Source: Exiguobacterium sp. Leaf196 (GTDB taxonomy: Bacteria; Bacillota; Bacilli; Exiguobacteriales; Exiguobacteriaceae). Taken from it: 64,000 bases of DNA. Shown in pieces: positions 43,133-59,249 of the stretch. Location of the stretch: positions 1 to 64,000 of the forward strand of contig NZ_LMPV01000009.1 in the NCBI RefSeq assembly GCF_001423965.1. Reading direction: 5' to 3'. The position numbers and the translations under genes were made by a program. Within the stretch, counting starts at the first letter, position 1; each line of letters begins with the position of its first letter. The notes under the pieces were generated by a model, which worked only from the letters and a program-made list of their open reading frames with translations, did not search any database and was not told the origin of the DNA.

Positions 43133-43205
43133 GGTATTCACTCTCTCTTCAGTCGTTCATAGTGTGTATCGTTAGTATACGGGTTATTTCAAACGTCGAC
43201 CATCC

Positions 43206-43973: not shown

Positions 43974-45178
43974 ACGAGTCCCTCCCGATCGACGACGAGT
44001 GCGATCCCTTGTCCAACTCCGACACACATCGTGGCAAGACCATATGTCCGGTTCGTCCGGCGCATCTCATGCAATAACGTCGTCAAAATCCGCGCTCCAC
44101 TTGCGCCGAGCGGATGACCGAAGGCAATCGCTCCGCCGTTGACGTTGACTTTTTCGCTCGGTAGACCGAGTGCTTCAATACAAGCAAGACTTTGAGCCGC
44201 AAACGCTTCGTTCAACTCAATCTGATCGAGCTGTTCGACCGTCAATCCTGCCCGTCTAAGAACTTTTTCCGTCGCGTCGATCGGTCCGATGCCCATGATG
44301 GCGGGTTCAACGCCTGCTGTCGCACTCGCTCGGTAATACCCAAGCGGTGTCAAGCCGAGTTCGTTTGCTTTTTCTTCACTCATCAATAACAGCGCCGACG
44401 CCCCGTCGTTGACGCCAGATGCATTTCCCGCCGTCACGGTACCGTTCGGGAATAAAGGACGAAGCGTCGCGAGTTTCTCACTTGTCGTCTCAGGGCGTGG
44501 GTGTTCATCTTGATCAAAGACGCTGACGTTGCCTTTCCGATCCATTTGCGTAACCGCAACTAGTTCTTCCGTGAAGCGCTCTGCCTCGATGGCTCGTTTT
44601 GCGCGTTGCTGACTCTCAAACGCAAATTCATCCTGTGCTTCGCGTGAGATGCCGTACTGACGGGCGACGTTCTCAGCTGTCTCCGGCATCGAATCCGTTC
44701 CATATTTATCTGCTAAGCGATCATTGACGAATCGCCAGCCAATCGTCGTATCATACATCGTCTGATTGCCACGTGGGTTGGCCTGATCCGGCTTCGCGAG
44801 AACGAACGGTGCACGCGTCATGCTTTCCGTTCCTCCAGCGATATAGATGTCCCCTTCACCTAAGGCAATTCCGCGCGCCGCCGCGATGACAGCATCGAGT
44901 CCTGATCCACATAAACGATTGATCGTCGTACCGGCTACTTCGACCGGTAGACCAGCTAGTAGTCCCGACATCCGGGCGACGTTGCGATTGTCTTCTCCCG
45001 CCTGATTCGCATTGCCAAAAATGACTTCCTCGATCGTCTTCGGATCGACTTGTGGATTACGCTCAAGCAACGCTTCGATGACACGTGCTCCTAAGTCATC
45101 TGGACGGACCTGACGCAACGCGCCGTTATAGCGACCGATCGGTGTCCGAACGGCATCGATGATGGCGACCCGTTTCAT
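43970..45178 (-). CDS. paaJ: 3-oxoadipyl-CoA/3-oxo-5,6-dehydrosuberyl-CoA thiolase (PaaJ type)
   Basis: 402 residues, cytosolic thiolase. Active Cys in NRLCGSGLDAVIAA near residue 90; GGTESMTRAPFVLAKP near residue 135 is typical of the beta-ketoadipyl-CoA thiolases PcaF/PaaJ; C-terminal His and Cys in NGGAIAFGHPLGASGAR and MCVGVGQG. Cleaves beta-ketoacyl-CoA intermediates to acetyl-CoA and succinyl-CoA. Coupled by ATGA overlaps to both neighbours. Confidence 0.9.
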   Translation of the reverse strand: MKRVAIIDAVRTPIGRYNGALRQVRPDDLGARVIEALLERNPQVDPKTIEEVIFGNANQAGEDNRNVARMSGLLAGLPVEVAGTTINRLCGSGLDAVIAAARGIALGEGDIYIAGGTESMTRAPFVLAKPDQANPRGNQTMYDTTIGWRFVNDRLADKYGTDSMPETAENVARQYGISREAQDEFAFESQQRAKRAIEAERFTEELVAVTQMDRKGNVSVFDQDEHPRPETTSEKLATLRPLFPNGTVTAGNASGVNDGASALLLMSEEKANELGLTPLGYYRASATAGVEPAIMGIGPIDATEKVLRRAGLTVEQLDQIELNEAFAAQSLACIEALGLPSEKVNVNGGAIAFGHPLGASGARILTTLLHEMRRTNRTYGLATMCVGVGQGIALVVDREGLV

Positions 45179-46041
45179 GATGTCACCTCGCGATTCGTAT
45201 AATCATAGACACCACGACCTGTCTTACGACCGAGTCGACCCGCTTTGACATACTGTTCGAGCAGTGGTGCCGGACGGTATTTTTCGCCGAGCTTCTCATG
45301 CAGATACTTTAAGTTGTGGAGCCGAGTATCAAGTCCGACCAAGTCCCCGAGTTCGAATGGTCCCATCGGGTAGTTTAAGCCGAGTTTGATCGCTTTATCG
45401 ATCTCTTCCGGTGTCCCGAGTCCTTCTTGTAACATGTAGAACGCTTCGTTTCCGACGAGCGCACTGATCCGCGAAGTGACGAACCCAGGAAACTCACGGA
45501 TGACGACCGTTTCCTTCTGCATTTGACGCGCTACCTGTTCAAGAGCTGCAACCGTCTCATCCGATGTCTCAAGACCACGAACGAGCTCGATCAGCGGCAT
45601 CAGATGGACCGGATTGAAGAAATGCATCGCCATGACCCGGTCCGCCCGGTTCGTAAAAGAGGCAATTTCCGTCGGACTCATCGTCGACGTGTTCGTCGCA
45701 AAGTAACAGTCCGGACGTGCATTCGCTTCTAACGTTTCAAAGACTTGCTGTTTGATGCTGAGTTGTTCCGGTACCGCCTCAATGACGAGATCCGCTTGTT
45801 GTGCAGCTGTTGCTAAATCCGTCGACAAACTTAATCGATCGAACAGTCCCTCGACTTCACTCGCGGACATTTTCCCCCGCGCGATGCCTTTCTCCGCGAT
45901 GCGTTCGAGTTCTTGATAGGCACTTTCGACATACGCTTCTTTAATATCAACGAGTGTCACCTGAAATCCACGGTGTGCGGCAACGTACGCAATGCCACGT
46001 CCCATGACGCCGGATCCGACGACAACGATTTGTTCTACCAT
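45175..46041 (-). CDS. paaH: 3-hydroxyacyl-CoA dehydrogenase (PaaH type)
   Basis: 288 residues, NAD-dependent oxidation of 3-hydroxyadipyl-CoA. Rossmann motif VVGSGVMGRGIA at residues ~6-17; catalytic region MAMHFFNPVHLMPLIELVRG with the active His; C-terminal domain NYPMGPFELGDLVGLD. AAGGGGGAAATCAG precedes ATG 46041. An intrinsic terminator lies just upstream (46070-46106), splitting the operon. Confidence 0.92.
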   Translation of the reverse strand: MVEQIVVVGSGVMGRGIAYVAAHRGFQVTLVDIKEAYVESAYQELERIAEKGIARGKMSASEVEGLFDRLSLSTDLATAAQQADLVIEAVPEQLSIKQQVFETLEANARPDCYFATNTSTMSPTEIASFTNRADRVMAMHFFNPVHLMPLIELVRGLETSDETVAALEQVARQMQKETVVIREFPGFVTSRISALVGNEAFYMLQEGLGTPEEIDKAIKLGLNYPMGPFELGDLVGLDTRLHNLKYLHEKLGEKYRPAPLLEQYVKAGRLGRKTGRGVYDYTNREVTS

Positions 46042-46115: not shown

Positions 46116-47624
46116 TTATAGTCCGAACGGATTGAGTGGACGACTGCCGTAATACGACAAGATACTCTTCGTTTCTGTGTACAGATCAAGTGTTTCGATA
46201 CAGAGTTCACGACCGAATCCTGATTGTTTATACCCACCAAACGGTGTACCTGGGAAAGCAGAAAACGGACAGTTGACCATGACGATACCGGCTTTGATTT
46301 GGTTGGCAACGCGCGTCGCTTTTGCACCGTCTTTTGTCCAAACCGCTGATCCGAGTCCAAACGATGTGTCGTTCGCTAAACGAATCGCTTCTTTTTCATC
46401 TTTGAACGGCATGACGACGACGACCGGTCCGAAGATTTCTTCATTGACCGCTTTCATCTCGTGCGTGACGTCCGTGATGATCGTTGGTGCGTACCAGAAG
46501 CCTTTTTCGTATCCTTCTGGTGCTGTCGCATGACCACCTGTGACGATTGTCGCTCCGTCTGCTTTCGCTGACTGGACATATCCATCGATGACGTCGACTT
46601 GTTGTTGGTCGATGATCGCTCCAACGTGTGTCCCTTTATCAAACGGATTACCGAGGACGAGTTGTTTTGTCTTCGCGACGAACTGTTCCATGAACGCTTC
46701 GTAGATCTCTTCGTGGACGTACAGGCGCGAGCGCGCTTCACACGATTGACCACCGTTATAGAAGATTCCGAACAATGAACCATCAACAGCTGCTGTCACG
46801 TCTGCATCTTCAAAAACGATGTTCGGCGATTTCCCACCGAGTTCGAGCGTGACTCGTTTTAGTGTTTCCGACGCACGTCCCATGATGTCTTTACCTACTG
46901 GCGTCGAGCCCGTGAAGGCGACTTTATCGACGTGAGGATGCTCGACGAGATGGTTGCCGATTTCGCGTCCTGAGCCTGGGATGACGTTGACGACACCTGC
47001 TGGAACGCCAGCTTCTAGACAAATCTCACCGAGAATGATCGCTGTCAATGGTGTCAATGTCGCTGGTTTGACGACGACCGAGCAACCGACTGCGATTGCT
47101 GGTGCGACTTTCCAAGCTGCCATCATCAACGGATAGTTCCACGGGATGATTTGTGCACAAACACCGACCGCTTCTTTTTCTGTGTAGTTATGGAATTGTC
47201 CCGGCACGTTATTGACGACACCGCGGTGACCGACGATCGCACCTGCGTAGAACTCAAAGTCTTCAATCGCTTGCGTGACTTGTCCTTGCGCCGCTGCTAG
47301 TGATTTCCCTGTATCGAGAATCTCAAGTTCGACGATTTCGTTGAAGCGGGAACGCATGATGCTCGCAATCTTATTTAAGATTTGCGCGCGGCGTCCGACT
47401 GGCCACATCTTCCACTTCCCGTGATCAAACGCATCCCGTGCGGCTTGAACGGCACGATCAGCGTCTTCCTTCGACGCTTTTGCAACTTCTGCAATCACTT
47501 CACCTGTTGCCGGATTATATGTTTTAAATGTCTCGCCTGTTGCACCTTCGACTTGTTCGCCGTTAATGAGCAAATGATAGACGGACCGTTTCATTTCAAG
47601 TGTTTTTTCATGTACTGTCGACAT
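46116..47624 (-). CDS. aldehyde dehydrogenase, probable PaaZ-type semialdehyde dehydrogenase
   Basis: NAD(P)-dependent aldehyde dehydrogenase of 502 residues. Motifs: IIPWNYPLMMAAWK, VTLELGGKSPNIVF (catalytic Glu), FYNGGQSCEARSR (catalytic Cys), EEIFGPVV. In E. coli the ring-opened semialdehyde is oxidised by the N-terminal domain of PaaZ, which is fused to a MaoC-like hydrolase domain. Here the protein ends without that domain. A role as 3-oxo-5,6-dehydrosuberyl-CoA semialdehyde dehydrogenase fits the cluster; phenylacetaldehyde dehydrogenase is an alternative. ATG 47624 follows AGGAGTGAATACA. Confidence 0.85.
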   Translation of the reverse strand: MSTVHEKTLEMKRSVYHLLINGEQVEGATGETFKTYNPATGEVIAEVAKASKEDADRAVQAARDAFDHGKWKMWPVGRRAQILNKIASIMRSRFNEIVELEILDTGKSLAAAQGQVTQAIEDFEFYAGAIVGHRGVVNNVPGQFHNYTEKEAVGVCAQIIPWNYPLMMAAWKVAPAIAVGCSVVVKPATLTPLTAIILGEICLEAGVPAGVVNVIPGSGREIGNHLVEHPHVDKVAFTGSTPVGKDIMGRASETLKRVTLELGGKSPNIVFEDADVTAAVDGSLFGIFYNGGQSCEARSRLYVHEEIYEAFMEQFVAKTKQLVLGNPFDKGTHVGAIIDQQQVDVIDGYVQSAKADGATIVTGGHATAPEGYEKGFWYAPTIITDVTHEMKAVNEEIFGPVVVVMPFKDEKEAIRLANDTSFGLGSAVWTKDGAKATRVANQIKAGIVMVNCPFSAFPGTPFGGYKQSGFGRELCIETLDLYTETKSILSYYGSRPLNPFGL

Positions 47625-47629
47625 TGTAT

Positions 47630-48409
47630 TCACTCCTGTTCCTGTTGATTGAAAATCGGTGGGCGTTTTTCGAGAAAAGCTTGCATACCTTCTGTTTGAT
47701 CGGCTGTTGCGAACAACAGATAGAAGTTCCGGCGTTCGTGCTCCATGCCATCTTGTAACGACAAATCGACGGCTTTGTTTGCTGCGTCCTTGATCAGTCG
47801 TAACGCCATGCTCGGCTGGTTCGATAACCGCTCTGCCATCGCAAGCACCGTCGCTTCAACGTCCATCGTCACTCGATTGATGATGCCAAGTCGTTCTGCT
47901 TCGTCTGCCTGCATCCGGTCACCCGTGAAGAGCCATTCGAGCGCCCGCGTCCGACCGATGCATTTCGTCAAACGTTGCGTCCCGCCTGCTCCCGGCATGA
48001 CGCCGAGTCCGACTTCTGGAAAACCGAACTGTGTCGCAGGATCGGCGTAGATTAAATCACAAGCAAGTGCGAGTTCGAAACCGCCGCCAAGGACGAAACC
48101 ATGGACACCTGCAATGATCGGCTTTTTGATTCGGCTGATCCGGTCCCAGTCCGCGAACGGATCGAGGAGTTCCATCGAGATCGGTGTCGCTTCGAGCATC
48201 TCCTCGATATCAGCACCTGCTGAAAACGACTTTCCGTTTCCCGTCAAGACGATGACCGTCACCTGATCGTCACGATCAAATATCTCCATCGCCTCGACGA
48301 TTTCGCGGACCATCGTCCGGTTCAGCGCATTGTATCGTGCCGTCCGGTCGAGGCGAATTCGACCGATCCGACCAACCATTTCCGTCTTAACGTACTGTTG
48401 TGTCGGCAT
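47630..48409 (-). CDS. enoyl-CoA hydratase (PaaF-like; paa cluster, first copy)
   Basis: 259 residues, crotonase fold. GGGFELALACD and FPEVGLGVMPGAGGTQRL hold both catalytic glutamates. Likely 2,3-dehydroadipyl-CoA hydratase or ring-opening hydrolase. The start is uncertain: TTG 48424, ATG 48415 and ATG 48409 are in frame; GGTGA spacing favours 48409. It overlaps the EthD gene by 23 bp. Confidence 0.85.
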   Translation of the reverse strand: MPTQQYVKTEMVGRIGRIRLDRTARYNALNRTMVREIVEAMEIFDRDDQVTVIVLTGNGKSFSAGADIEEMLEATPISMELLDPFADWDRISRIKKPIIAGVHGFVLGGGFELALACDLIYADPATQFGFPEVGLGVMPGAGGTQRLTKCIGRTRALEWLFTGDRMQADEAERLGIINRVTMDVEATVLAMAERLSNQPSMALRLIKDAANKAVDLSLQDGMEHERRNFYLLFATADQTEGMQAFLEKRPPIFNQQEQE

Positions 48410-48710
48410 GGACATCTTCACCAATCATCAATGTGACGAGATCCCCCGCAAAGCTCATCAAGTCTTTCCCTGACGCTTTTCCTTCAATAGAACGCATGCC
48501 AGCTTGCATCGCTTCCTGACTTTCATAGACCATCTCGCACATTAAGTAGTACTTTCCGTCTCCACCCATTGGTGAACCAACGATTTTTGTGACGTTCATT
48601 TCTTTTAGTCCTGGAATTTTTGCTGTTAGCGGACCATGGACTTCAAAGTAATGCTGATCGAATGCTTCCTTGTTTTCCGGGTGTTTGTACAATGCGATTA
48701 ATTTTGCCAT
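48387..48710 (-). CDS. EthD-family protein in the paa operon
   Basis: 107 residues, ferredoxin-like alpha-beta barrel of the EthD family: IALYKHPENKEAFDQHYFEVHGPL and GLKEMNVTKIVGSP. GAAGGAAGGTAATCAAT precedes ATG 48710. EthD proteins accompany oxygenase pathways; its exact task is unknown. It sits between paaD and an enoyl-CoA hydratase, overlapping the latter. Confidence 0.85.
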   Translation of the reverse strand: MAKLIALYKHPENKEAFDQHYFEVHGPLTAKIPGLKEMNVTKIVGSPMGGDGKYYLMCEMVYESQEAMQAGMRSIEGKASGKDLMSFAGDLVTLMIGEDVHADTTVR

Positions 48711-48725
48711 ATTGATTACCTTCCT

Positions 48726-49220
48726 TCACATGAGAGTAGAGACGGGTTTCATCGCCTCGAATGGATTTTTACACGATTTACAGTAGAGAATACTTCGACA
48801 TGCCGTCGGTCCGAATAAGTTTTCCATCGTCACATACGTTGATCCACAATACGGACAGTCAATCTCCCACTTTCCTTGTTCGAATCGAGGGGGTGCGATG
48901 CCGAATGCTTTTAATCCTTGCATCCCTTGTTCTGTGATTCGGTCCGATGTCCACGGTGGATCAAACCGGAACTGGACATCGACCTGTTCGACGTTCGGAA
49001 TCACCTGCAAGGCAGCTTCGGTATTTTTTTTAATGATTTCAAGCGCCGGACAACCGAGAAACGTCGGGAGAAGCGTGACGTGCACCGTGTAGCCATGCGC
49101 CGTCGCTTCCGCGTCCATCGTCTCGACCATGCCAAGATCTAAAATACTGACGCTATCGATTTCTGGATCCTTCACCCCGTTCAGGGCTTCACGGATCGCA
49201 TGTTGAAGTGTCGTCGTCAT
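48726..49220 (-). CDS. paaD: 1,2-phenylacetyl-CoA epoxidase maturation/accessory subunit
   Basis: 164 residues. N-terminal DUF59/MIP18-type domain (VKDPEIDSVSILDLGMVE, PTFLGCPALEIIK) and a C-terminal zinc ribbon (CPYCGS ... CRSILYCKSCKNPFE). This two-part plan is that of PaaD, thought to help assemble metal centres of the epoxidase system. ATG 49220 follows GGAGAGGGAAGC. Confidence 0.94.
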   Translation of the reverse strand: MTTTLQHAIREALNGVKDPEIDSVSILDLGMVETMDAEATAHGYTVHVTLLPTFLGCPALEIIKKNTEAALQVIPNVEQVDVQFRFDPPWTSDRITEQGMQGLKAFGIAPPRFEQGKWEIDCPYCGSTYVTMENLFGPTACRSILYCKSCKNPFEAMKPVSTLM

Positions 49221-49234
49221 GCTTCCCTCTCCTT

Positions 49235-50020
49235 TCACCACGTCGCCGTTTGGTCAATCAGATAGACTTCTCCGAGTGTCGCGAGTGCATCATTCAAGTC
49301 TTCCGTGTGATCGCCGTCCCGCCCGTTGCGTGTCATCTGCATTTCTGGGAGGGTCACGTTCAATTCGACGAGTAACGGTGTGATCGTCTGATACCAACGA
49401 TCAAGTAAAATCCCTTGCCCTTCAATCAACCGCATCTCTTCGATCAGTTGACCGTGTTCGCCATAATCGAACATGTCGCCGAAGTCGTAGAGGACTTTTT
49501 CTAGGGCTGCATCCATCTTCTGGCGAGCTGTCTCCGTCGATTGGTAGAGCTGGGTGAACCACGTTTGCCAGTGCAGCAAATGATAGTACAACTCCATATT
49601 GATCTTGACGGCAGCAGCAGCAAGGGGCTCGTAACTGCTCGATTTCAACGCATCAATCCGGATCTTTTTCGCGACCGTGTAGCAATAGTTCCGGACGACA
49701 GCGAATGCCCAGTCATATTCGGGTTTTTCCATATAGTAGCCGGGTCCATTGACACGTTCGACAAGAATCGAGTTCTTCCGTTCATGTGCCAAGCGGACGT
49801 GGGCTAACGCATCGGCATTCCCTTCACCAAGTTCCTCAAGGAGTTGGTAATACATCGCCGCGTGCCCCATCGAATCTTGCGCGATTGAGGATGAAGCGAC
49901 GTCCTCTTCGATATGCGGTGCAAGTCCGAGCCATTCCGAACCACGATACGCGTAGAGGAAATCATCATCTGCGAGTTGATAAAGTAAGGAGGCGAGTGCC
50001 GTCCGTTCTTGTTCCGTCAT
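49235..50020 (-). CDS. paaC: 1,2-phenylacetyl-CoA epoxidase subunit PaaC
   Basis: 261 residues. Structural ferritin-like partner of PaaA: LADDDFLYAYRGSEWLGLAPHIEEDVA, AQDSMGHAAMYYQLL, ERVNGPGYYMEKPEYDWAFAVVRNY. AAGGAGGCGATTCCAA precedes ATG 50020, inside the end of paaB (4-bp overlap). Confidence 0.95.
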   Translation of the reverse strand: MTEQERTALASLLYQLADDDFLYAYRGSEWLGLAPHIEEDVASSSIAQDSMGHAAMYYQLLEELGEGNADALAHVRLAHERKNSILVERVNGPGYYMEKPEYDWAFAVVRNYCYTVAKKIRIDALKSSSYEPLAAAAVKINMELYYHLLHWQTWFTQLYQSTETARQKMDAALEKVLYDFGDMFDYGEHGQLIEEMRLIEGQGILLDRWYQTITPLLVELNVTLPEMQMTRNGRDGDHTEDLNDALATLGEVYLIDQTATW

Positions 50021-50361
50021 TTGGAATCGCCTCCTTGCCACGACATGATTTCTTTTTCATCGAGCATCTGTTGCTCGTAATGCCGCCATTTTTTCTTCAA
50101 ATAGCCATATCCTTTAGTCGTCCGGTAGTCCTTATTATCAAGGCGTTGGAGCATCTGCTTTTCATCGGGTGACAAACCACGGATATCTTCACGTTTGACG
50201 ACCCAGATATCGACGACTGGTTCCCGGCGCATGAAGTTTTCTTGTGCCATCAGTAACGCCATCTCTTTATTTGGAGCAAGTAAACTGAATTGATGCGTGA
50301 ACGCCGCGTTCGGCGTCCGTTTGCTAAAGACTTCGAATTCGTGATAGAACGTCTCGTTCAT
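50017..50361 (-). CDS. paaB: 1,2-phenylacetyl-CoA epoxidase subunit PaaB
   Basis: 114 residues. FYHEFEVFSKRTPNAAFTHQFSLLAPNKEMALLMAQENF region, then EPVVDIWVVKREDIRGLSPDE, all PaaB features. The small subunit bridges PaaA-PaaC heterodimers. ATG 50361 after GGGGAAGGTACG; coupled to paaC. Confidence 0.95.
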   Translation of the reverse strand: MNETFYHEFEVFSKRTPNAAFTHQFSLLAPNKEMALLMAQENFMRREPVVDIWVVKREDIRGLSPDEKQMLQRLDNKDYRTTKGYGYLKKKWRHYEQQMLDEKEIMSWQGGDSK

Positions 50362-50375
50362 CGTACCTTCCCCTC

Positions 50376-51347
50376 TCATGCCTTCGTTTCAGCGAGTGCA
50401 TCCCGTACCCAAGCATTATTCTCATAAGATGTCCGGCGCAGATCTAGTCGCTCTTTCGAACGCGGTCCTCCACCTTGGATGATCGTCTTGAATTTCGTCC
50501 AGTCCGGCTGTGCGTATTCCCATTGCCCTGTTTCTTCATCAAAACGTAACGTCGGGTCTGGAATGACGAGTCCGAGCGAACGAATCCGCGGCACGTACTT
50601 TGTAAAGAAGTTTTGCCGGAGCTCTTCATTCGTTTTCGTCCGAATCTTATAAGCGATCGTCACGTCCTGTTTCGATGTCCCGGTCGTCTCTTTCGAGGCT
50701 GGTCCAAAGAACATCAACAAGGATTCCCACCACTCATCCAGTGATTCTTGAATCATTGCCCGCTGTTCCGGTGTTCCTTCTGCGAGTGCCATGATGATTG
50801 ACTCCCCATGTTGTGCGTGGAAGACTTCCTCTGCACAGATCCGTTGCAAGGCACGCGCGTACGGTCCGTACGAAGCGCCGAGCATGTTCGTCTGCGTGAT
50901 AATTGCCGCCCCATCGACAAGCCAACCAATCATTCCGGCATCGGCCCATGACCGTGTCGGCATGTGGAAGACGTTGTGAAATTTCAATCGTCCCGTAAAT
51001 AAATCATCCATCAAATCCCCACGTGTCTTGCCATACGGCTTCATCAAATCCTCAACGACACGAAGCAACAATTGCCCGTGTCCCATTTCATCCTGGACCT
51101 TCGCCATGATGCCAAGTTTTCGTCGAAGCGATGGTGCTTTTGGAACCCATTCTTTTTCCGGAAGTGCACCCATGATTTCACTGATACCGTGCATCGAAAT
51201 CAGTTTAATCAGTGTGTCTCGGTAAAAAGCAGGCATCCAGTCATCGGCTTCGATCTTTTCACCTTGCTCGATTCGTTCCTTGAAGCGTGCTAATTTTTCG
51301 TCTTCCGTCAGTTGGACGGGTTCGAACAGTTGTGTTGCATCATACAT
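50376..51347 (-). CDS. paaA: 1,2-phenylacetyl-CoA epoxidase catalytic subunit PaaA
   Basis: 323 residues, di-iron monooxygenase that epoxidises the aromatic ring of phenylacetyl-CoA. Iron-ligand helices are seen as MAKVQDEMGHGQLLL and ICAEEVFHAQHGE. AAGGAGGAACTAGC precedes ATG 51347. First epoxidase gene after paaK. The electron donor reductase PaaE is not present in the window. Confidence 0.96.
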   Translation of the reverse strand: MYDATQLFEPVQLTEDEKLARFKERIEQGEKIEADDWMPAFYRDTLIKLISMHGISEIMGALPEKEWVPKAPSLRRKLGIMAKVQDEMGHGQLLLRVVEDLMKPYGKTRGDLMDDLFTGRLKFHNVFHMPTRSWADAGMIGWLVDGAAIITQTNMLGASYGPYARALQRICAEEVFHAQHGESIIMALAEGTPEQRAMIQESLDEWWESLLMFFGPASKETTGTSKQDVTIAYKIRTKTNEELRQNFFTKYVPRIRSLGLVIPDPTLRFDEETGQWEYAQPDWTKFKTIIQGGGPRSKERLDLRRTSYENNAWVRDALAETKA

Positions 51348-51365: not shown

Positions 51366-52643
51366 TCAGACGAGTGATGTCGAGCGTCGATCAACGACCC
51401 GGACGGCTTTACCTTCCGATCGTGGTAACCCTTGATGCGGGTGACAGACGAGATCAATGGAAATGAGACATTCCGACTTGATGGCGTCACATATCGAACG
51501 CATTTGTCGTTCTGAGATATTTTCGAATTCGATATGTAGCTCAACGACATCGAGTCCGGCTTTACGTACGAGATGGATTTGATAATGTGGCGTCACGTCC
51601 GGTTGTTGGAGCAAGACCCGCTCGATTTCTGACGGAAAGACGTTGACCCCTCGGATAATCAGCATGTCGTCCGTCCGCCCTTTGACACGTGACATTCGTG
51701 TCGTCGTCCGACCACAAGCGCACACTTTACGCGTGATCGAAGCTAAGTCGCCTGTCCGGTATCGAATGATTGGAAACGCTTTCTTTTTCAAGCTTGTAAA
51801 AACGAGTTCCCCGACCATGCCATCTGGTAACGGTTCCCCCGTAACGGGATCGACGACTTCCGTAATGAATAAGTCATCCATGATATGCAGACCTGCTTGC
51901 TCTTGACACTCCATTGCGACACCCGGTCCCATGATTTCGCTGAGTCCATAGATATCGAGTGCCTGCAGATCAAAGGTCTGTTCGAGTGTCTGCCGCATCT
52001 CCTCAGACCAGGGCTCGGCCCCAAAGATGCCATAACGCATACTTGTTTTCCGTGGATCGATACCACGTTCAATCATGCGTTCTGCCAAGCGTAAAATATA
52101 CGAAGGCGTACCACAGATTCCGTCCGGTCGGAAATCCTCGATCAATGTGATTTGGCGATCCGTGTTGCCACCGGAAATCGGTAAGATCGTCATGCCTAGT
52201 TTTTCTGCTCCTGCATGAAGCCCGAGACCACCTGTGAACAATCCGTAACCATACGCATTGTGCAGCAAATCAGCTGGTGATCCACCGGCTAAGACTAAAC
52301 TGCGTGCCACGGCACCGGCCCAGTCATCTAAATCTTCTTGCGTATATCCGACGACGGTCGGTTTACCGCTCGTTCCAGACGAGGCATGAATCCGGGTGAC
52401 CTCTTCTCGTACGACGGCAAATAGTCCGAACGGATAATGATCGCGTAAATCTTGTTTACGTGTGAAGGGAAACTTTCGTAGATCCTCGATCGTTTGAAAA
52501 TCGTTCGCCGTCATCTGTAAGGTCTGCAGACGTTCTTGATAGAACGGGACGCGCGTGATGTGTTCCATCGTTTGACGTAATCGCTCCATCTGTAGCTGCT
52601 CCCGCGTTTGAGCATCCATCGTTTCGTGATGTTGATCGTACAT
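51366..52643 (-). CDS. paaK: phenylacetate-CoA ligase
   Basis: 425 residues, AMP-forming. Nucleotide motifs: HASSGTSGKPTVVGYT near residue 87, EPWSEEMRQ, YGLSEIMGPGVAMEC, RYRTGDL, and VFPSEIERVL in the C-terminal lid. Activates free phenylacetate to phenylacetyl-CoA. GATGAGGAGGTGCAGAT precedes ATG 52643. First gene of the minus-strand paa operon. Confidence 0.95.
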   Translation of the reverse strand: MYDQHHETMDAQTREQLQMERLRQTMEHITRVPFYQERLQTLQMTANDFQTIEDLRKFPFTRKQDLRDHYPFGLFAVVREEVTRIHASSGTSGKPTVVGYTQEDLDDWAGAVARSLVLAGGSPADLLHNAYGYGLFTGGLGLHAGAEKLGMTILPISGGNTDRQITLIEDFRPDGICGTPSYILRLAERMIERGIDPRKTSMRYGIFGAEPWSEEMRQTLEQTFDLQALDIYGLSEIMGPGVAMECQEQAGLHIMDDLFITEVVDPVTGEPLPDGMVGELVFTSLKKKAFPIIRYRTGDLASITRKVCACGRTTTRMSRVKGRTDDMLIIRGVNVFPSEIERVLLQQPDVTPHYQIHLVRKAGLDVVELHIEFENISERQMRSICDAIKSECLISIDLVCHPHQGLPRSEGKAVRVVDRRSTSLV

Positions 52644-52974
52644 ATCTGCACCTCCTCATCATGTATACAATAATAAAACGGTCGTTTGTTTTTAGTTATA
52701 TGTTTAACGTACGATACGTTCACAATGTTGTCAATCTTGTTTTGTTAAATGCTCCCAAACGATTCTCACTTTATCACTTCAACGCACCTTATCGATAAAA
52801 TAATCAACATTAAACAAGAGATTTCATGATATATAGTCTTTTTTTGGAAAATATTTTTGAAATGATTTGCTCATTTTGTAACGGGTTGATAAAATATCGT
52901 GTGACAAGTGTTATACTATTTTTGGTAAGACCACTTGGTTGAATAAAGATGCTGTGTTGTGAAAGGGGATCACG
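52644..52974. promoter_or_regulatory. divergent promoter region between paaK and the phenylalanine operon
   Basis: 331 bp, AT-rich. The plus side has an extended -10, TG-T-TATACT (TATACT 52912-52917), with TTGATA upstream at non-ideal spacing of 20 bp. The palindrome TTATCGATAA lies at 52789-52798. The paaK-proximal dyad at 52706-52720 is listed separately. The rest shows no motif. Confidence 0.55.
52706..52720. promoter_or_regulatory. candidate operator upstream of paaK
   Basis: A perfect inverted repeat, AACGTA-CGA-TACGTT, 63 bp upstream of the paaK start. Its size and place suit a regulator dimer, with PaaX the obvious candidate because it is encoded at the end of the same operon. No known PaaX box from a Firmicute was available for comparison. 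Confidence 0.45.
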
Positions 52975-53376
52975 ATGAAACTAGGGTTAGCTGTCGGGGA
53001 TACAGCAGAGATTCAAGCGGTCGTCTCGGAAGATATGTTTGCACGATTCGAAGGTCAGCTCGTTCATCCAGCATACTCCACCGTTTCGATGGTTTATCAC
53101 ATGGAATGGGCAGCACGTCAACTGATCTTGCCTTACCTAGAAGCTGGTGAAGAAGGTGTTGGGGGTGCAGTTTCACTGAAGCATCTTGGTATGGCAGCGG
53201 AAGGAGCACGATTGATCATAACCGCGACAGTAACGTCGATGACCTCACGTCGCGTTGACGCGAGCATTGAAGTCCGAGACGGACAAACGATCATCGGTAC
53301 AGGGGAAGTCACACAATTCATTTTAGAAAAAAGCCGGATTCAAGAAAAATTACAAAATAATGTTCCGACAAAATGA
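52975..53376 (+). CDS. FlK-like hotdog thioesterase
   Basis: 133 residues, single hotdog domain. [28 protein letters not shown] and [26 protein letters not shown] follow the pattern of fluoroacetyl-CoA thioesterase FlK (MEWA..., ATxxxxHxxxxPxG). The active residues of FlK are Thr, Glu and His; here the Glu (MEWA) and His (LKHLG) are visible. AAAGGGGATCACG precedes ATG 52975. It heads the phenylalanine/2-oxoacid operon, so release or detoxification of phenylacetyl-CoA or a dead-end CoA ester is plausible. Confidence 0.75.
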
Positions 53377-53387
53377 AAGCGCTTACT
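53373..53387 (+). promoter_or_regulatory. cre site (CcpA operator) in the phenylalanine operon
   Basis: ATGAAAGCGCTTACT matches the cre consensus WTGNAANCGNWNNCW at every defined position. It overlaps the thioesterase stop codon and lies 27 bp before the phenylalanine dehydrogenase start. An internal cre can block elongating polymerase, so glucose should repress the downstream genes. Confidence 0.7.
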
Positions 53388-53413
53388 TATATTTGATAGA
53401 GGAGGACTCTACT

Positions 53414-54556
53414 ATGAACATGTTAAACCCATCTACGAATCCAACGCTCTCGATCATGGAAAAAATCGCTGGTCACGAACAAGTCGTCTTTTGCAACGAC
53501 CCTGTCTCGGGGTTACAAGCCATCATCGCCATTCATGATACGACGCTCGGTCCTGCTCTCGGTGGATGCCGCATGGCGCCTTATGCTTCTGTTGATGAAG
53601 CACTTGACGATGTGCTGCGTTTGTCGCGCGGTATGACGTATAAATGCGCTGCCGCTGATGTTGATTTTGGTGGTGGTAAAGCCGTCATCATCGGTAATCC
53701 AGCGACGGATAAATCACCAGAGCTTTTCCGTGCCTTCGGTCGCTTCGTCGATTCGCTCGGTGGTCGGTTCTACACGGGAACGGACATGGGCACGACGATG
53801 GATGATTTCGTTCATGCTAGCCGAGAAACATCACGGATCGTCGGCATTCCGGAAGCATTTGGTGGTAGTGGTGATTCATCGATTCCAACGGCTGAAGGTG
53901 TCGTCTATGGATTACGGGCGACGATCGAGACGTTATTCGGTTCAGATGAATTAAGTCGGGCAACCTACGCGATCCAAGGACTCGGAAAAGTCGGCTTTAA
54001 GGTCGCCGAACAACTGTTGCTCGCCGGGGCGACGATTTATGTCTCTGACGTCAATGAAGCGGCACTAGCAGCAATCGTAACCCAAGCTGAAATGGCGCCT
54101 GGCACGGTTCGCGTCGTCTCGCCTCATGAAATTCATCTGACGGATGCTGATATTTTTGTCCCGTGTGCATACGGTGGTGTCATTCACGCTCAAAACATCG
54201 CGCTCTTACCGTGCAAAGCCATCTGTGGTTCGGCGAACAACCAACTCGCGGAAGAACAACTTGCTCACGTCTTGATGGATCGTGGCATCTTATATGCCCC
54301 AGACTATATCGTCAATGGTGGTGGGCTGATCCAAGTGGCAGACGAACTGTATGGAGCAAATCACGAACGGGTTCTCCTAAAAACGCGTCACATCTATGAC
54401 GCAGTTCTCGAAGTCTTCAAAGAGTCGCAAGCAGAGAACATCACGACGGTCGAAGCGGCGAACCGGATGTGTGAAAAACGGATGCAGATTCGGGCGAAAC
54501 ACAACAACATCTTTACGAACACGACAAAACCAAAATGGGATATCCGTAACCACTGA
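53414..54556 (+). CDS. pdh: phenylalanine dehydrogenase
   Basis: 380 residues, NAD-dependent oxidative deamination of L-phenylalanine to phenylpyruvate. ELFV dehydrogenase fold: GPALGGCRM, catalytic-Lys region [33 protein letters not shown], Rossmann motif IQGLGKVG and [16 protein letters not shown], the GTDMGTxMDDF block and the C-terminal KPKWDIRN are those of Bacillus phenylalanine dehydrogenases; leucine dehydrogenases instead have LNLGGGK and EDVGTT. ATG 53414 follows GAGGAGGACTCTACT. Its product is the natural substrate for the downstream complex. Confidence 0.9.
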
Positions 54557-54569
54557 AGGAGGGACTGAC

Positions 54570-55619
54570 ATGGAGCAACATTTTCCGATTCAACGCATTA
54601 TCGATGAAGAAGGTCGTATCATCGACGCCTCAAAAGAACACGATCTGACAAAAGAGCTTGCCCTCATCCTATATGAACAGATGCACCGGATCCGGACGTT
54701 CGACCGGAAGGCGATCAACTTACAACGCCAAGGGCGCCTCGGCACTTATGCACCGTTCGAAGGACAAGAGGCAGCGCAAGTCGGTAGTGCACTCGCGTTG
54801 TCCGATCAAGACTGGTTGTTCCCGACGTATCGGGATCACGGCGCAACGTTGACGTTCGGTGCCGACATGGTGCGGACACTCCTCTACTGGAACGGTCGTG
54901 TTGAAGGTTGCGTCCCGTCTGAGAAACACATCTTTCCTCCTGCTGTGCCGATTGCAACGCAAATTCCGCATGCCGTCGGTGCCGCATGGGCGGAAAAACG
55001 AAAAGGCACGACGAACGTCGCGGTCGCCTACTTTGGTGACGGAGCGACGTCTGAAGGGGATTTCCATGAAGGAATGAACTTTGCAAGCGTCTTCCAAGCA
55101 CCAGTCATCCTGTTTAACCAAAACAATCAGTTCGCGATCTCTGTTCCGATCGAAAAACAGATGCATTCTGAGACGATCGCGCAAAAAGCGATTGCCTACG
55201 GGATGCCAAGTGTTCGGATTGATGGAAACGATGCTTTTGCCGTCTATTTTACGATGCAAGCAGCTGTTGAACGTGCCCGTTCTGGTGGTGGACCAACATT
55301 GATCGAAGCCGTCACGTGGCGGTTTGGTGCCCATACGACAGCAGATGATCCAACAAAATACCGGGATCAAGCACGCTCGCGCGACCGAGTTGATCCGCTC
55401 GATCGACTCGAACACTTCTTAAAACACCGAGGCTATTTTGACGAAACATGGATGCAACAGCTGCAGGAACGGCATCAAACAGAAGTCGAAGCGGCAGTAG
55501 TTGCGATGGAGCAATTCAAGGCGCCAGACATCAATGACTTGTTCGATCATACGTACGCAACTTTACCGGTTGATGTCCAGCAACAAAAAGAAGCGTATTT
55601 GCTAGCAAGGGGGAAATGA
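54570..55619 (+). CDS. 2-oxoacid dehydrogenase E1 component, alpha subunit
   Basis: 349 residues, ThDP-binding. [29 protein letters not shown] is the ThDP-Mg motif near residue 155; RYGAH-like loop is [30 protein letters not shown] precedes ATG 54570. The sequence is PDH/BCKDH-type. Because it follows phenylalanine dehydrogenase and neighbours the paa operon, phenylpyruvate is the suggested substrate; pyruvate or branched-chain 2-oxoacids are alternatives. Confidence 0.9.
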   Translation: [349 protein letters not shown]

Positions 55620-55620
55620 G

Positions 55621-56619
55621 ATGGCAACACCAATCAATCGTCAAACAGAAATGACACTCGTTCAAGCTGTCACGGATGCCCTGCGGACAAAATTGTCGGA
55701 GGATGAGACGACACTCGTTCTTGGAGAAGATGTCGGAAAAAACGGTGGCGTCTTCCGAGCGACGGACGGCTTACAAGAAGAGTTCGGTGAAGACCGGATC
55801 GTTGATACACCGCTCAGTGAAGCCGGCATCGTCGGTACATCGATCGGTCTTGCCATCAATGGCTTTAAACCGATCGTAGAGATTCAATTTCTCGGCTTCA
55901 TCTACCCTGCCTATGAACAAATCATGACCCATGTCTCTCGTATCCGGATGCGAACGATGGGACGCTATAGTGTGCCGATGGTCATTCGTGCGCCTTATGG
56001 TGCCGGCATCCGGGCACCGGAAATCCATTCCGATAGTACGGAGGCGCTCTTTACATCAATGCCCGGTCTCAAGGTCGTCTGTCCGGCGACACCGTACGAC
56101 GCAAAAGGGTTATTGATTGCTGCGATTGAAGATCCAGATCCCGTGTTGTTCCTCGAGTCGATGCGTAGTTACCGTTCATTCAAGGAAGTCGTACCGAGCG
56201 AGTCCTATACCGTCGAGATCGGAAAAGCGCGCTGCGTCAGTGAAGGGACGGACGTGACGTTGATCGCTTGGGGGGCAATGGTCCAAGTGGCTCACAAGGC
56301 AGCGATGGCTGCACAGGAACGCGGTATTTCTTGCGAAGTCCTCGACTTACGGACGCTCTATCCGCTTGACCGGGACACAATCGCTGCTTCCGTTCAAAAG
56401 ACCGGTCGTGCCGTCATCGTGCATGAAGCCGCAGCGATGGGTGGTCTCGGGAATGATCTCGTCACGTTGATCAACGATACGGCGTTTCTTTATTTACGGG
56501 CACCAATTGCCCGTGTGACAGGTTTTGATGTTCCGGTTCCACTGTTCGCCCTCGAAGACCATTACATTCCGACGCCGGAACGAGTCCTTGCGACGATTCA
56601 GCGTACGGTCGAGTTTTAA
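55621..56619 (+). CDS. 2-oxoacid dehydrogenase E1 component, beta subunit
   Basis: 332 residues. Transketolase pyrimidine-binding domain: LGEDVGKNGGVFRATDGLQEEFG, DTPLSEAGIVGTSIG (catalytic Glu), then the C-terminal transketolase domain with LDLRTLYPLDRDTI and VHEAAAMGG. Starts one base after the E1-alpha stop, with AAGGGGGAAATGAG as ribosome binding site inside its end. Confidence 0.92.
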   Translation: MATPINRQTEMTLVQAVTDALRTKLSEDETTLVLGEDVGKNGGVFRATDGLQEEFGEDRIVDTPLSEAGIVGTSIGLAINGFKPIVEIQFLGFIYPAYEQIMTHVSRIRMRTMGRYSVPMVIRAPYGAGIRAPEIHSDSTEALFTSMPGLKVVCPATPYDAKGLLIAAIEDPDPVLFLESMRSYRSFKEVVPSESYTVEIGKARCVSEGTDVTLIAWGAMVQVAHKAAMAAQERGISCEVLDLRTLYPLDRDTIAASVQKTGRAVIVHEAAAMGGLGNDLVTLINDTAFLYLRAPIARVTGFDVPVPLFALEDHYIPTPERVLATIQRTVEF

Positions 56620-56632
56620 GGAGCTGAGTCCC

Positions 56633-57850
56633 ATGATCGAAGTCAAGTTACATGATGTCGGGGAAGGTATGACGGAAGGTGAAATCGCGCATTATCTCGT
56701 TCAAGTCGGAGACCACGTCACGACCGATCAACCGGTCGTTGAGGTTGCGACCGATAAGATGGTCGCTGAACTACCGGCTCCTGTCTCCGGAATCGTCAAG
56801 AAAATCATCATTCCGGTCGGTCAGACGGTGCAAGTCGGTACGACGTTGTTGCACATCGAAGCAAGTAACGCTTCTGAAGTGCCGGTCGCGGTAAAACCTG
56901 AAGTGTCGCGCGTATCTGAACCAGCGCCTGTCGCTGTCGCGGCCCCACCTGCTCAAGCATCTCCATCAAAACGTGTCCTTGCGACACCGTATACGCGAAA
57001 ACTTGCTCGTGACCACGGGATTGATATCGAAGCTGTGACGGCTTCGGATCCATCAGGTCGAGTTTCAGAGGACGATGTGCTTCGCTTCGTCCAGGCTACT
57101 ACTGCTCCACAAGAGACAGCTACACCGATTATTGAAGAGGTCACATACCAAGAAACATCACCGGAAACGATTCCGTTCCGCGGCATTCGTAAGCAAATCG
57201 CGAAAAAGATGACTCAGTCGCTGTACACGATTCCGCACGTCACCCACTTTGAGGAAGTTGACATGACGCGCTTGCTCGCACTACGCGCAGAATGGAAAAC
57301 CGCTGGACGAAATATCAACATCAATGCTTTCTTCATCAAAGCCTTGATCGTTGCCTTAAAAGACTATCCCGTCTTCCATGCCAAACTCGATGAAGCGAAT
57401 GAATGTATTCGATTAGAGCAGGATTTCCACTTTGGCATGGCAACCGAGACACCAGACGGGTTAATGGTGCCAGTCATCCGTCATGCCGATCGGCTCTCAC
57501 TGACGGAATTGCATGATCAACTGATCTCGTTGCAACAACGTGCTCAAAACGGTGCCTTACGTGCAGCGGACTTAAAGCCAAGTACCTTTACGATGAGCAA
57601 TGTTGGTCCACTGGGCAGTACGGGGGCTACACCAATCATCAACTATCCGGAAACGGCATTGATTGCCTTCCACAAGACGAAAAAGCGAGCCTGTGTCGAT
57701 GAAGACGATCAAATCGTCGTCCGCTCGATGATGAATTTGTCGATGTCGTTCGATCATCGCGTCGCAGACGGGGCAACGGCCGTTGCCTTTACAAATCGAT
57801 TCGTTTCACTGATTGAACATCCGACTACCCTACTTTTGGAGTTGATCTAA
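56633..57850 (+). CDS. 2-oxoacid dehydrogenase E2 component (dihydrolipoyl acyltransferase)
   Basis: 405 residues. One N-terminal lipoyl domain with the lipoyl-lysine in VATDKMVAEL near residue 42. Linker rich in Ala/Pro/Val, then a peripheral subunit-binding domain (ATPYTRKLARDHGID ... GRVSEDDVLRFV, residues ~117-152). Catalytic domain with DHRVADG near the C-terminus (SMSFDHRVADGATAVAF). The protein has only one lipoyl domain, as in BCKDH and Bacillus PDH. AAGGAGCTGAGTCCC precedes ATG 56633. Confidence 0.92.
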   Translation: MIEVKLHDVGEGMTEGEIAHYLVQVGDHVTTDQPVVEVATDKMVAELPAPVSGIVKKIIIPVGQTVQVGTTLLHIEASNASEVPVAVKPEVSRVSEPAPVAVAAPPAQASPSKRVLATPYTRKLARDHGIDIEAVTASDPSGRVSEDDVLRFVQATTAPQETATPIIEEVTYQETSPETIPFRGIRKQIAKKMTQSLYTIPHVTHFEEVDMTRLLALRAEWKTAGRNININAFFIKALIVALKDYPVFHAKLDEANECIRLEQDFHFGMATETPDGLMVPVIRHADRLSLTELHDQLISLQQRAQNGALRAADLKPSTFTMSNVGPLGSTGATPIINYPETALIAFHKTKKRACVDEDDQIVVRSMMNLSMSFDHRVADGATAVAFTNRFVSLIEHPTTLLLELI

Positions 57851-57851
57851 C

Positions 57852-59249
57852 ATGGTTGTTGGCGAACTTACACAAGAACGGGATCTCCTGATCATCGGTG
57901 GGGGTCCCGCAGGTTACACGGCAGCGATCCGTGCTGCGCAAGGCGGTCGTAAGGTGACACTGATTGAACAAGCTGAACTCGGTGGACTTTGTTTGAACCG
58001 AGGCTGTATCCCGTCCAAGGTTTATGCGCATGCGGCAGAAGAAATGTTACGCTTGCCTCATCTTGAAGACCTTGGATTCACCACCCCTACTGTCCATGAC
58101 TTCAGTAAACTGAATGCTTACCGCAATCGTGTCGTGCAGCAATTACGTCAAGGTGTCGTCGCCCTCTGTCAGGCGAATCAAATCGAGCATATTTCTGGTG
58201 CAGCTTCCTTCCTGTCAGAGGACCGGATCGGTGTTGAGTCGGGACATCAGTTCGATACGTATCGATTCCAAGATGTCATCATCGCGACCGGTAGTCACAG
58301 CATCCAGCACGAGGAATCGTGCCGACTGAATGCCGAACAGCTTTATCAACTCGAGCAGTTACCAACCAGCTTATTGATCATTGGCTCCGACACATTAGCA
58401 CTTGAAGCCGCAGCCTGTTTCCATGCTCTCGGTACAGAGGTGACGTTGTTTGCCGATCAATTGTCGCTTGAACCAAGCGTTGAAAAGGAACTGAAGCGGA
58501 CATTCAAAAAACAAAAAATCCGTCTCGTGTCGGATGTCGTGACACAGATCGATGCTTCAGTAGACGCGACCGTCACGGTCATGAAAAACGGTGAAGAAGT
58601 CACCTATCATGGCGCCTATCTGTTCCAATCCCTCGCCCGGATTCCGAACAGTTTGACGCTCGGTCTCGAACGGATCGGCGTGACGCTTGCAGAAGACGGG
58701 ACGATCCCCGTCGACGCATACGGACAAACCAATCAACCGCATATTTACGCGATCGGTGATGTGACCCCGGGTCCACAGTTCGCCACTCGTGCGATTCACG
58801 AAGCGAAGCGGACAGCAGCTCACTTGTCCGGTCAAGACGTCGATCCGACGACACCGTATTATCCTACCGTTCTGCGAACGTTTCCTCCGATTGCTTCGGT
58901 CGGGATGACGGAACAGGAAGCCCGTGAAGCCGGACATACTGTTCAGAGTGGACAGTTCCCACTAAATGCAAACGGAACGACGACGATTGAAGGGGGCAGT
59001 GGGTTCGTCAAGGTCATCGCTGACGAACAGACATCACTGATCCTTGGTATTCATATGATAGGAGACGATGCTCATCGTCTCGTCGGTCAATTCACCCAAG
59101 CACTGGAACTGACAGCGAAACGAGAAGACCTCCTCTTCCCTGTCATGGCACACCCTAGTCGAAGCGAAGCATTGACGGAATCGATGGAAGCCTTATTCAG
59201 TCAATCGATCCACCTTCCACCGCGGCAACAGATCGGTTCGCGCGCGTAA
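57852..59249 (+). CDS. dihydrolipoyl dehydrogenase (E3) of the 2-oxoacid complex
   Basis: 465 residues, FAD flavoprotein that reoxidises lipoamide. FAD motif IIGGGPAGYTAAIRAAQGG; redox Cys pair in GGLCLNRGCIPSK near residue 45; NAD domain near LLIIGSDTLALEAA; C-terminal His-Glu pair in MAHPSRSEALTE. The NAD motif GSDTLALE departs from the usual GGGxIGxE. A dedicated E3 next to E1/E2 shows the complex is self-contained. Confidence 0.9.
   Translation: MVVGELTQERDLLIIGGGPAGYTAAIRAAQGGRKVTLIEQAELGGLCLNRGCIPSKVYAHAAEEMLRLPHLEDLGFTTPTVHDFSKLNAYRNRVVQQLRQGVVALCQANQIEHISGAASFLSEDRIGVESGHQFDTYRFQDVIIATGSHSIQHEESCRLNAEQLYQLEQLPTSLLIIGSDTLALEAAACFHALGTEVTLFADQLSLEPSVEKELKRTFKKQKIRLVSDVVTQIDASVDATVTVMKNGEEVTYHGAYLFQSLARIPNSLTLGLERIGVTLAEDGTIPVDAYGQTNQPHIYAIGDVTPGPQFATRAIHEAKRTAAHLSGQDVDPTTPYYPTVLRTFPPIASVGMTEQEAREAGHTVQSGQFPLNANGTTTIEGGSGFVKVIADEQTSLILGIHMIGDDAHRLVGQFTQALELTAKREDLLFPVMAHPSRSEALTESMEALFSQSIHLPPRQQIGSRA

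Follow-up and report, generated by a model that had tools for sequence, protein, structure and literature searches.

A predicted route from phenylalanine to phenylacetyl-CoA through a dedicated 2-oxoacid dehydrogenase complex in Exiguobacterium and other Bacilli

Gene content of the locus

The window analysed here is a 64,000-nucleotide stretch of the genome of Exiguobacterium sp. Leaf196 (contig NZ_LMPV01000009.1, positions 1 to 64,000), and the system in question is a set of six genes at positions 52975–59249 that is predicted to carry L-phenylalanine into the degradation of phenylacetyl-coenzyme A (phenylacetyl-CoA). All six lie head to tail on the plus strand, open and intact. The first encodes a FlK-like hot-dog acyl-CoA thioesterase of 133 residues (52975–53376), recognised by its frame, its Pfam FlK domain and its triad, and the second a phenylalanine dehydrogenase (PheDH) of 380 residues (53414–54556, with a longer frame from 53360), recognised by N- and C-terminal ELFV_dehydrog domains and by its pocket residues. 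The subunits of a 2-oxoacid dehydrogenase complex follow: E1alpha (54570–55619, with a longer frame from 54396), with an E1_dh domain; E1beta (55621–56619), with Transket_pyr and Transketolase_C; E2 (56633–57850), with lipoyl, E3-binding and acyltransferase (2-oxoacid_dh) domains assigned by Pfam and motifs; and E3 (57852–59249), a dihydrolipoyl dehydrogenase with a Pyr_redox_2 domain that reaches 378.9 bits on TIGR01350, under the cut-off of 408.8. From PheDH through E3 the intergenic gaps measure 1 or 13 bases, and the gap between the thioesterase and PheDH genes 37. ATDKM, with the lipoyl lysine, and DHRxxDG are found in E2, and CxxxxC and HPxRSE in E3, the catalytic signatures of the lipoyl lysine, E2 and E3; all the subunits, domains and signatures of a complex of the E1alpha/beta type are present.

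The operon is divergent from a phenylacetate (paa) gene cluster on the minus strand, which starts with the phenylacetate-CoA ligase PaaK (51366–52643; 573.4 bits on TIGR02155, under the cut-off of 646.3) and continues with the epoxidase genes: PaaA, a phenylacetyl-CoA epoxidase subunit (50376–51347; 454.8 bits on TIGR02156, cut-off 280), PaaB (50017–50379), named by its position and in the original prediction, which was made from the sequence alone, and PaaC (49235–50041; 221.8 bits on TIGR02158, cut-off 133.35). The six-gene operon and its divergence from paa, as that prediction had described them, are borne out by the reading frames and Pfam domains. E1alpha and paaA lie 2.1–4.3 kb apart in all 19 Exiguobacterium genomes, and the 19 sister-genus genomes have neither paaA nor an E1 of the window type; this neighbourhood is therefore not a matter of chance.

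Identity of the dehydrogenase

In the available text of PMC8543943, the substrate pocket of the Bacillus badius PheDH is given as L50, G51, G52, M75, F86, G123, V144, L306, V309 and L313, and its catalytic residues as K78, K90, D125 and N276. The protein of the B. badius locus in our collection (L081; loci and genomes bear our own L and G numbers) has all 14 published residues, so that the published numbering applies to it. The window dehydrogenase is identical to it at all 14 positions, and the leucine dehydrogenase (LeuDH) of the same genome deviates at four of them, F86, G123, V144 and L306 being replaced by L, A, T and V, respectively. A LeuDH identity for the window protein is ruled out by these pocket residues, and PheDH activity can be regarded as a well-supported prediction. 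The phenylalanine-type dehydrogenase claimed in the original prediction, which had quoted the motif KPKWDIRN (present in the translation), thus holds. In B. badius too, PheDH stands directly 5' of E1alpha, E1beta, E2 and E3, with paa genes upstream.

General similarity searches place the protein less precisely. In phmmer, structures of LeuDH and tryptophan dehydrogenase (TrpDH) outrank the Rhodococcus PheDH chains 1bw9, 1bxg, 1c1d and 1c1x. The top NCBIfam match is the TrpDH ScyB (353 bits, under the cut-off of 600). A Rhodococcus cluster containing a PheDH is mentioned in the accessible part of PMC6498646.

The complex compared with pyruvate and branched-chain dehydrogenases

The genome has five E1_dh matches, four of them above cut-off. 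One belongs to a separate complex of the pyruvate dehydrogenase (PDH) type on contig C6, whose E1alpha reaches 453.9 bits on TIGR03181, above the cut-off, and another to a branched-chain 2-oxoacid dehydrogenase (BKD) on contig C1, encoded after phosphate butyryltransferase, LeuDH, butyrate kinase and E3 (ptb-bcd-buk-lpd-bkd). The window E1alpha is 39% identical to the cell's PDH and 38% to its BKD. That the four genes might be the cell's only pyruvate dehydrogenase, which would have spoken against the original prediction, is excluded by the complex on C6, and readings of the window complex as an enzyme for pyruvate or branched-chain substrates lose weight because both complexes are encoded elsewhere.

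It could still be argued that the operon holds a second PDH, or another complex that makes acetyl-CoA, recruited to the paa region, and that phenylalanine enters through phenylacetate and PaaK. The window E1alpha passes the PDH model TIGR03181 with 465.5 bits (cut-off 411.35), and the solved structures closest in sequence are PDH subunits (E1alpha and E1beta, entries 1w85 and 3duf). The model does not separate the two types, since the window protein itself is above its cut-off, and in phylogeny the window E1alpha does not group with the cell's PDH. A FastTree phylogeny of E1alpha and E1beta sets 36 of 61 rows in one clade (local support 0.973) that excludes PDH, BKD and the remaining unassigned E1s of the same genomes; these 36 are a sample of loci of the window type together with PheDH-, aminotransferase- and paa-linked ones, and a previous phylogeny, with 101 rows and a smaller set of outgroups, agrees on the separate clade, here called aryl-type. 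Three members (L174, L175, L217) stand beside neither PheDH nor paa, and their genomes carry PaaA. Pyruvate oxidation explains neither the recurrent pairing with PheDH nor the retention of paa after paaK loss, both described below, and a second PDH is highly improbable.

It is also conceivable that the complex serves branched-chain 2-oxoacids, or a broad range of 2-oxoacids, and handles phenylpyruvate as well. The window E1alpha motif PIATQIPHAVG resembles PLATQIPQAVG of the human BKD E1alpha, and BKD adjoins LeuDH much as the window complex adjoins PheDH. Against this stand the complete ptb-bcd-buk-lpd-bkd operon elsewhere in the genome, an association with PheDH and paa, and the positions that distinguish the aryl type: 27 in E1alpha and 18 in E1beta, constant in more than 95% of 68 and 72 aryl sequences, respectively, and unlike both the consensus of 17 PDH rows and the single BKD of this genome. 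The window genes also lack the ptb/bcd/buk operon context, and there was no grouping with BKD E1s, represented by three rows, all from the bacterial family to which Leaf196 belongs. A branched-chain or broad-range enzyme is accordingly quite unlikely. Some of the aryl-fixed positions, namely E1alpha H90 beside YRD and E1beta Y126-G-A128 before the catalytic histidine, are presumably near the cofactor, judging by the aligned residues of human BKD. The fixed positions are candidate determinants of the substrate pocket.

Natural losses of paaK

Three of the 19 Exiguobacterium genomes have no intact paaK: the gene is missing, interrupted or shortened by an internal deletion. E. sibiricum 255-15 has a paaK of full length. 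E. flavidum HF60 (G025), rated 100% complete, gives no paaK match at 1e-20 in the whole genome; in E. antarcticum DSM 14480 (G023) the gene is broken into two pieces, some 1.05 kb from each other, that flank an IS30-family transposase; and in strain KRL4 (G031) it is short by some 60 residues. In all three, the FlK-like thioesterase, PheDH, E1alpha, E1beta, E2 and E3 are full or nearly full length and free of stops, and so are PaaA, PaaB, PaaC and PaaD. The PaaC match of E. flavidum begins at residue 30, its reading frame being 269 residues long, and the PaaF-like gene of KRL4 has a stop at alignment column 262 of 264, close to its expected end. If phenylacetate and PaaK were the sole entry, the epoxidase of these strains would be idle, barring a substitute CoA ligase. 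The retention of both the complex and paaABCD after paaK loss speaks in favour of an entry of phenylalanine without PaaK, as the original prediction had supposed.

Association across genomes

A PheDH-anchored scan of named genomes, in which neighbouring genes were ignored, gave the best 80 of 285 relatives. These 80 loci include close kin and three species entered twice, so that the independent cases are fewer than 80; those nearest to the window (L068–L076) are from Exiguobacterium. E1alpha is present in 72 of them, E1beta in 71, E1alpha, E1beta and E2 together in 69, E3 in 49 and a FlK-like gene in 52. In 63 loci E1alpha starts on the same strand within 300 bases downstream of PheDH; otherwise it lies within 5 kb upstream (seven loci) or downstream (two). 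Outside Exiguobacterium, 63 of 71 PheDH loci have E1alpha. A paa marker (PaaA–D, PaaX or EthD) occurs in 51 of the 80 stretches, with PaaA–D in 25. For 27 of the 29 stretches without a marker the genome was searched whole (L094 and L126, short fragments, were left out), and PaaA was found at 1e-150 or better in every one.

A class-wide sample of 299 Bacilli genomes was searched with cut-offs of E ≤ 1e-40 for PaaA, 1e-110 for PheDH, and 1e-95 or the stricter 1e-104 for E1alpha, giving PaaA in 112 genomes, E1alpha (1e-95) in 110 and PheDH in 69. The E1 counts quoted here use 1e-104, because 1e-95 lets other E1 types in: at L207–L211 and L223, taken at 1e-95, Leaf196's own PDH scores higher than the window E1, and at L212–L216, L218, L221, L222 and L224 the E1 falls outside the aryl clade. 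Even 1e-104 is impure, since L224 (G166, 1.2e-106) passes it, as does L216 from G057, a genome with a further E1 match (L217) that does fall inside the clade; tree placement covers part of the E1 rows above this cut-off. At 1e-104, 94 genomes have both E1alpha and PaaA, 18 PaaA only, nine E1 only and 178 neither (81, 18, nine and 178 outside Exiguobacterium). Among the 69 genomes with PheDH, 65 have an E1 match of some kind, and in 61 such a match lies no more than 5 kb away (outside the genus, in 48 of 56). PaaA is present in 62 of the 69. The Fisher p-values for co-occurrence ignore descent and so overstate it. The survey of PheDH, E1–E3 and paa for which the original prediction had called revealed a wide association, both in the 80 loci and in the 299 Bacilli.

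Two of the eight PheDH genomes with no near E1 match (G194 and G204, loci L184 and L185) have PheDH directly beside a different E1alpha/E1beta/E2 set, whose E1alpha is 37–38% alike, which suggests that a complex was recruited to this function a second time. Conversely, eight E1 loci lacking PheDH were fetched. In three of them (L169, L170, L182) a class I/II aminotransferase directly precedes E1alpha, and two of these (L169, L170) also contain paa genes. Such an aminotransferase would give the same 2-oxoacid from phenylalanine and replace PheDH; the arrangement is suggestive and not regular. E1 is preceded by ABC transporter genes in L173 and L175, by a hydrolase in L174, and in L168 by a divergent hemerythrin-like protein and an unassigned one. 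Nearby paa genes occur at L168, at L171 and in G176, the genome of L173.

The proposed route

The current model proposes that the operon provides a two-step entry of L-phenylalanine into the ring-epoxidation pathway of phenylacetyl-CoA, a reading to which we give a probability of about 0.8. PheDH would oxidatively deaminate phenylalanine to phenylpyruvate and NADH, and the aryl-type complex, with its thiamine diphosphate-dependent E1alpha/beta, lipoyl E2 and E3, would convert phenylpyruvate, CoA and NAD+ into phenylacetyl-CoA, CO2 and NADH. Flux would thus run from the amino acid to the thioester, which PaaABC then epoxidises. Phenylpyruvate decarboxylase, phenylacetaldehyde dehydrogenase and the ATP-consuming PaaK would all be bypassed. 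The direct conversion of phenylpyruvate by the complex, the core of the original prediction, gains support from the PheDH pocket, the separate PDH and BKD, the genomic linkage and the paaK losses, all of them features of sequence and gene order.

Several observations, besides the TIGR03181 score, weigh against this model. Of the 112 genomes with PaaA, 18 have no E1 at 1e-104, and nine genomes have an E1 match and no PaaA at 1e-40. When these nine were checked for a PaaA-like gene (leaving out G073, G091, G187 and G205), none was found in the fetched stretches of G089 (PheDH-E1-E2; 17 kb) and G166 (7.8 kb); G157, G177 and G206 have, beside PheDH-E1-E2-E3, a compact cluster that encodes a PaaA-like protein 28–29% identical to that of the window. 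Outside the genus, E1 lies within 30 kb of PaaA in only 28 of the 83 genomes with both. Fervidibacillus halotolerans (L133) has paa, the FlK-like gene and PheDH, and at 1e-60 its genome has only a PDH-like E1; G049 likewise combines PheDH, FlK and paa with no E1 match. Five of the eight PheDH-less E1 loci have no class I/II aminotransferase before E1, and in one of them, L171, a divergent class IV aminotransferase stands there, which fits branched-chain substrates too. Finally, an unlinked KorA-type oxidoreductase of the Leaf196 genome could in principle act on arylpyruvates.

This last protein is one of four TPP_enzyme_N matches in the genome: two acetolactate synthases, MenD and, below the cut-off, the alpha subunit of a 2-oxoacid:acceptor oxidoreductase. 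None of the four has a phenylpyruvate or indolepyruvate decarboxylase as its best model. The original prediction of a route that dispenses with phenylpyruvate decarboxylase is therefore consistent with the thiamine enzymes of this genome.

The L133 stretch also contains an ABC transporter, and this exception calls for another catalyst. In L178, and also in L179 and L180, a PaaA-like gene (L178:2920–3756) encodes a 278-residue protein of the PaaA_PaaC family, 28–29% identical to PaaA. The compact L178 cluster has the order PaaX-FlK-EthD-hydratase-PaaH-PaaJ-PheDH-E1-E2-E3, and no PaaB, PaaC or PaaD matches are found in it. Its PaaA_PaaC-family protein may perhaps be a one-subunit aryl-CoA epoxidase.

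The thioesterase and the role of PaaK

The FlK-like protein scores 107.2 bits on Pfam FlK (cut-off 27). Alignment with FlK structures pairs its T36, E44 and H70 with the triad T42, E50 and H76, so that it has both the domain and the Thr/Glu/His triad of FlK thioesterases. In our reading it would hydrolyse phenylacetyl-CoA or a downstream aryl-CoA whenever the epoxidase lags behind, and by releasing CoA it would guard the CoA pool like a valve. The product need not be recaptured, since E. flavidum keeps the FlK-like gene without paaK. The original prediction had reserved PaaK for external phenylacetate; that substrate stands, and the claim is incomplete, because the thioesterase could regenerate phenylacetate within the cell. 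PaaK would then handle free phenylacetate of either origin. For the strain represented by L072, Exiguobacterium sp. RIT 594, the consulted part of PMC9416434 describes the paa cluster and the thioesterase in relation to polystyrene, and that part makes no mention of the dehydrogenase or the complex.

Relation to known systems

In the classical route, phenylalanine is converted to phenylacetate and activated by PaaK, which needs phenylpyruvate decarboxylase or the like, an aldehyde dehydrogenase and ATP. The route proposed here would meet it at phenylacetyl-CoA, and both use PaaABC; the decarboxylase of the classical route was not found in this genome.

The reaction itself has precedents. According to the available text of PMC7089894, PglB/PglC of Streptomyces pristinaespiralis, a PDH-like E1alpha/beta pair, converts phenylpyruvate to phenylacetyl-CoA. 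That system is biosynthetic (phenylglycine) and lies in an antibiotic cluster, and there paa competes for the product; the window complex, likened to it by description and not by sequence, differs in having its own E2 and E3 and in standing beside PheDH and paa. The phenylpyruvate:ferredoxin oxidoreductase (PPFOR/IOR) of anaerobes also forms aryl-acetyl-CoA from arylpyruvates by oxidative decarboxylation (PMC13290082, in the part available). PPFOR/IOR is linked to ferredoxin, whereas the window encodes a lipoyl complex with E3, for which NAD linkage is expected. The ptb-bcd-buk-lpd-bkd operon of Bacillota likewise sets an amino acid dehydrogenase, LeuDH, beside a 2-oxoacid dehydrogenase complex, but it is a branched-chain system, which this genome encodes in an operon of its own, with an E1alpha 38% identical to that of the window. 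No account of the pairing of PheDH and this complex with paa in Bacilli was found among the open-licence papers listed or in the text available from them, and there is a fair chance that this use is unreported.

If the model is correct, it fills a missing step in Bacilli, from phenylalanine to phenylacetyl-CoA without phenylpyruvate decarboxylase; phenylacetyl-CoA would be made without ATP, and a gene set named pyruvate dehydrogenase by TIGR03181 would be reassigned. Surveys anchored on paaK, such as that of 2026 in PMC13186573 as far as its accessible text goes, would miss paa clusters like that of E. flavidum. The natural paaK-negative strains make the model testable by plate growth alone.

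A complex split over two loci and a link to tyrosine

At seven loci (L102, L110, L115, L122, L124, L128, L142) a PheDH paralogue is followed by E2 without E1. Whole-genome searches found an aryl-type E1alpha (64–68%) elsewhere in all seven genomes, on the same contig as PaaA and 10–12 kb from it in six, and on a different contig in G333. Each genome has a single aryl-type E2 (50–55%), the one behind the second PheDH, and the remaining E2 matches reach 40% or less. In Ornithinibacillus halophilus, L105 has paa, PheDH, E1alpha and E1beta and then a binding protein of an ABC transporter, and the E2 is at L128. L102 lies in an operon for 4-hydroxyphenylacetate, with a hydroxylase, an extradiol dioxygenase, an FAA hydrolase and 5-carboxymethyl-2-hydroxymuconate isomerase; L128 lies in another, with the last three; this context was seen at these two of the seven E2-only loci.

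From these gene positions, the simplest reading, and the boldest part of our proposal, is that in the seven genomes one arylpyruvate complex is common to phenylalanine and tyrosine. The same positions could be taken to mean that the main substrate of the complex is 4-hydroxyphenylpyruvate or indolepyruvate, or that it uses all arylpyruvates equally, as the sole aryl-type E2 stands behind the second PheDH, away from E1, and the two loci examined are 4-hydroxyphenylacetate operons. For the window and most of the 80 loci this is unlikely, given their PheDH partner and the paa genes in the same stretch or genome. More broadly, it is tentatively proposed, at slightly under even odds, that there is a separate class of lipoyl complexes, "arylpyruvate dehydrogenase", through which phenylalanine, and tyrosine too in some genera, would usually enter ring degradation as CoA thioesters in Bacilli; that in Ornithinibacillus, Paucisalibacillus and Oceanobacillus genomes one complex is split over two loci and serves both pathways; and that PaaK is dispensable and was lost more than once.

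In four loci (L093, L094, L101, L111) the FlK-like gene is flanked by two PheDH copies, of which one may perhaps serve phenylalanine and the other tyrosine. L173 encodes a homogentisate dioxygenase-like protein (L173:7839–8996; HgmA_N, 41.9 bits) about 3 kb upstream of its aryl-type E1, perhaps a link to tyrosine catabolism.

The divergent promoter region and the rest of the paa cluster

By its position, the interval 52644–52974, between paaK and the operon, is the divergent promoter region. It contains the palindrome AAACGGTCGTTT at 52676–52687, 33 bases before paaK. AAACGNNCGTTT, with a variable centre, occurs at a similar place in seven of the nine named loci of the genus (not L070 and L076), and the palindrome is a candidate operator. 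In the 80 loci, AACGNNCGTT occurs 31 times, where base composition predicts 20.6. Promoter- and terminator-like sites were no commoner than in shuffled sequences (three against a mean of 7.0; ten against a mean of 8.2, standard deviation 3.1), and an inverted-repeat listing for the three regions scanned gave none. The PaaX repressor gene, at the far end of the cluster (42248–43141, minus strand; 327 bits on TIGR02277, cut-off 264.55), may encode the regulator of these genes.

Beyond PaaC, and all on the minus strand, the cluster continues with a PaaD-like gene (48726–49241), named by position and with no NCBIfam match at 1e-60; an EthD-family gene (48387–48710) assigned by Pfam; and, by NCBIfam, a PaaF-like enoyl-CoA hydratase (47630–48424) and an aldehyde dehydrogenase (46116–47633), which probably takes the ring-opened semialdehyde. 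A 3-hydroxyacyl-CoA dehydrogenase (45175–46041) and a 3-oxoadipyl-CoA thiolase-like protein, PaaJ (43970–45178), both named by family search, are followed by an enoyl-CoA hydratase/isomerase (43206–44027; NCBIfam). The EthD-family gene, in the interval between paaD and the hydratase gene, recurs in paa clusters of other genera.

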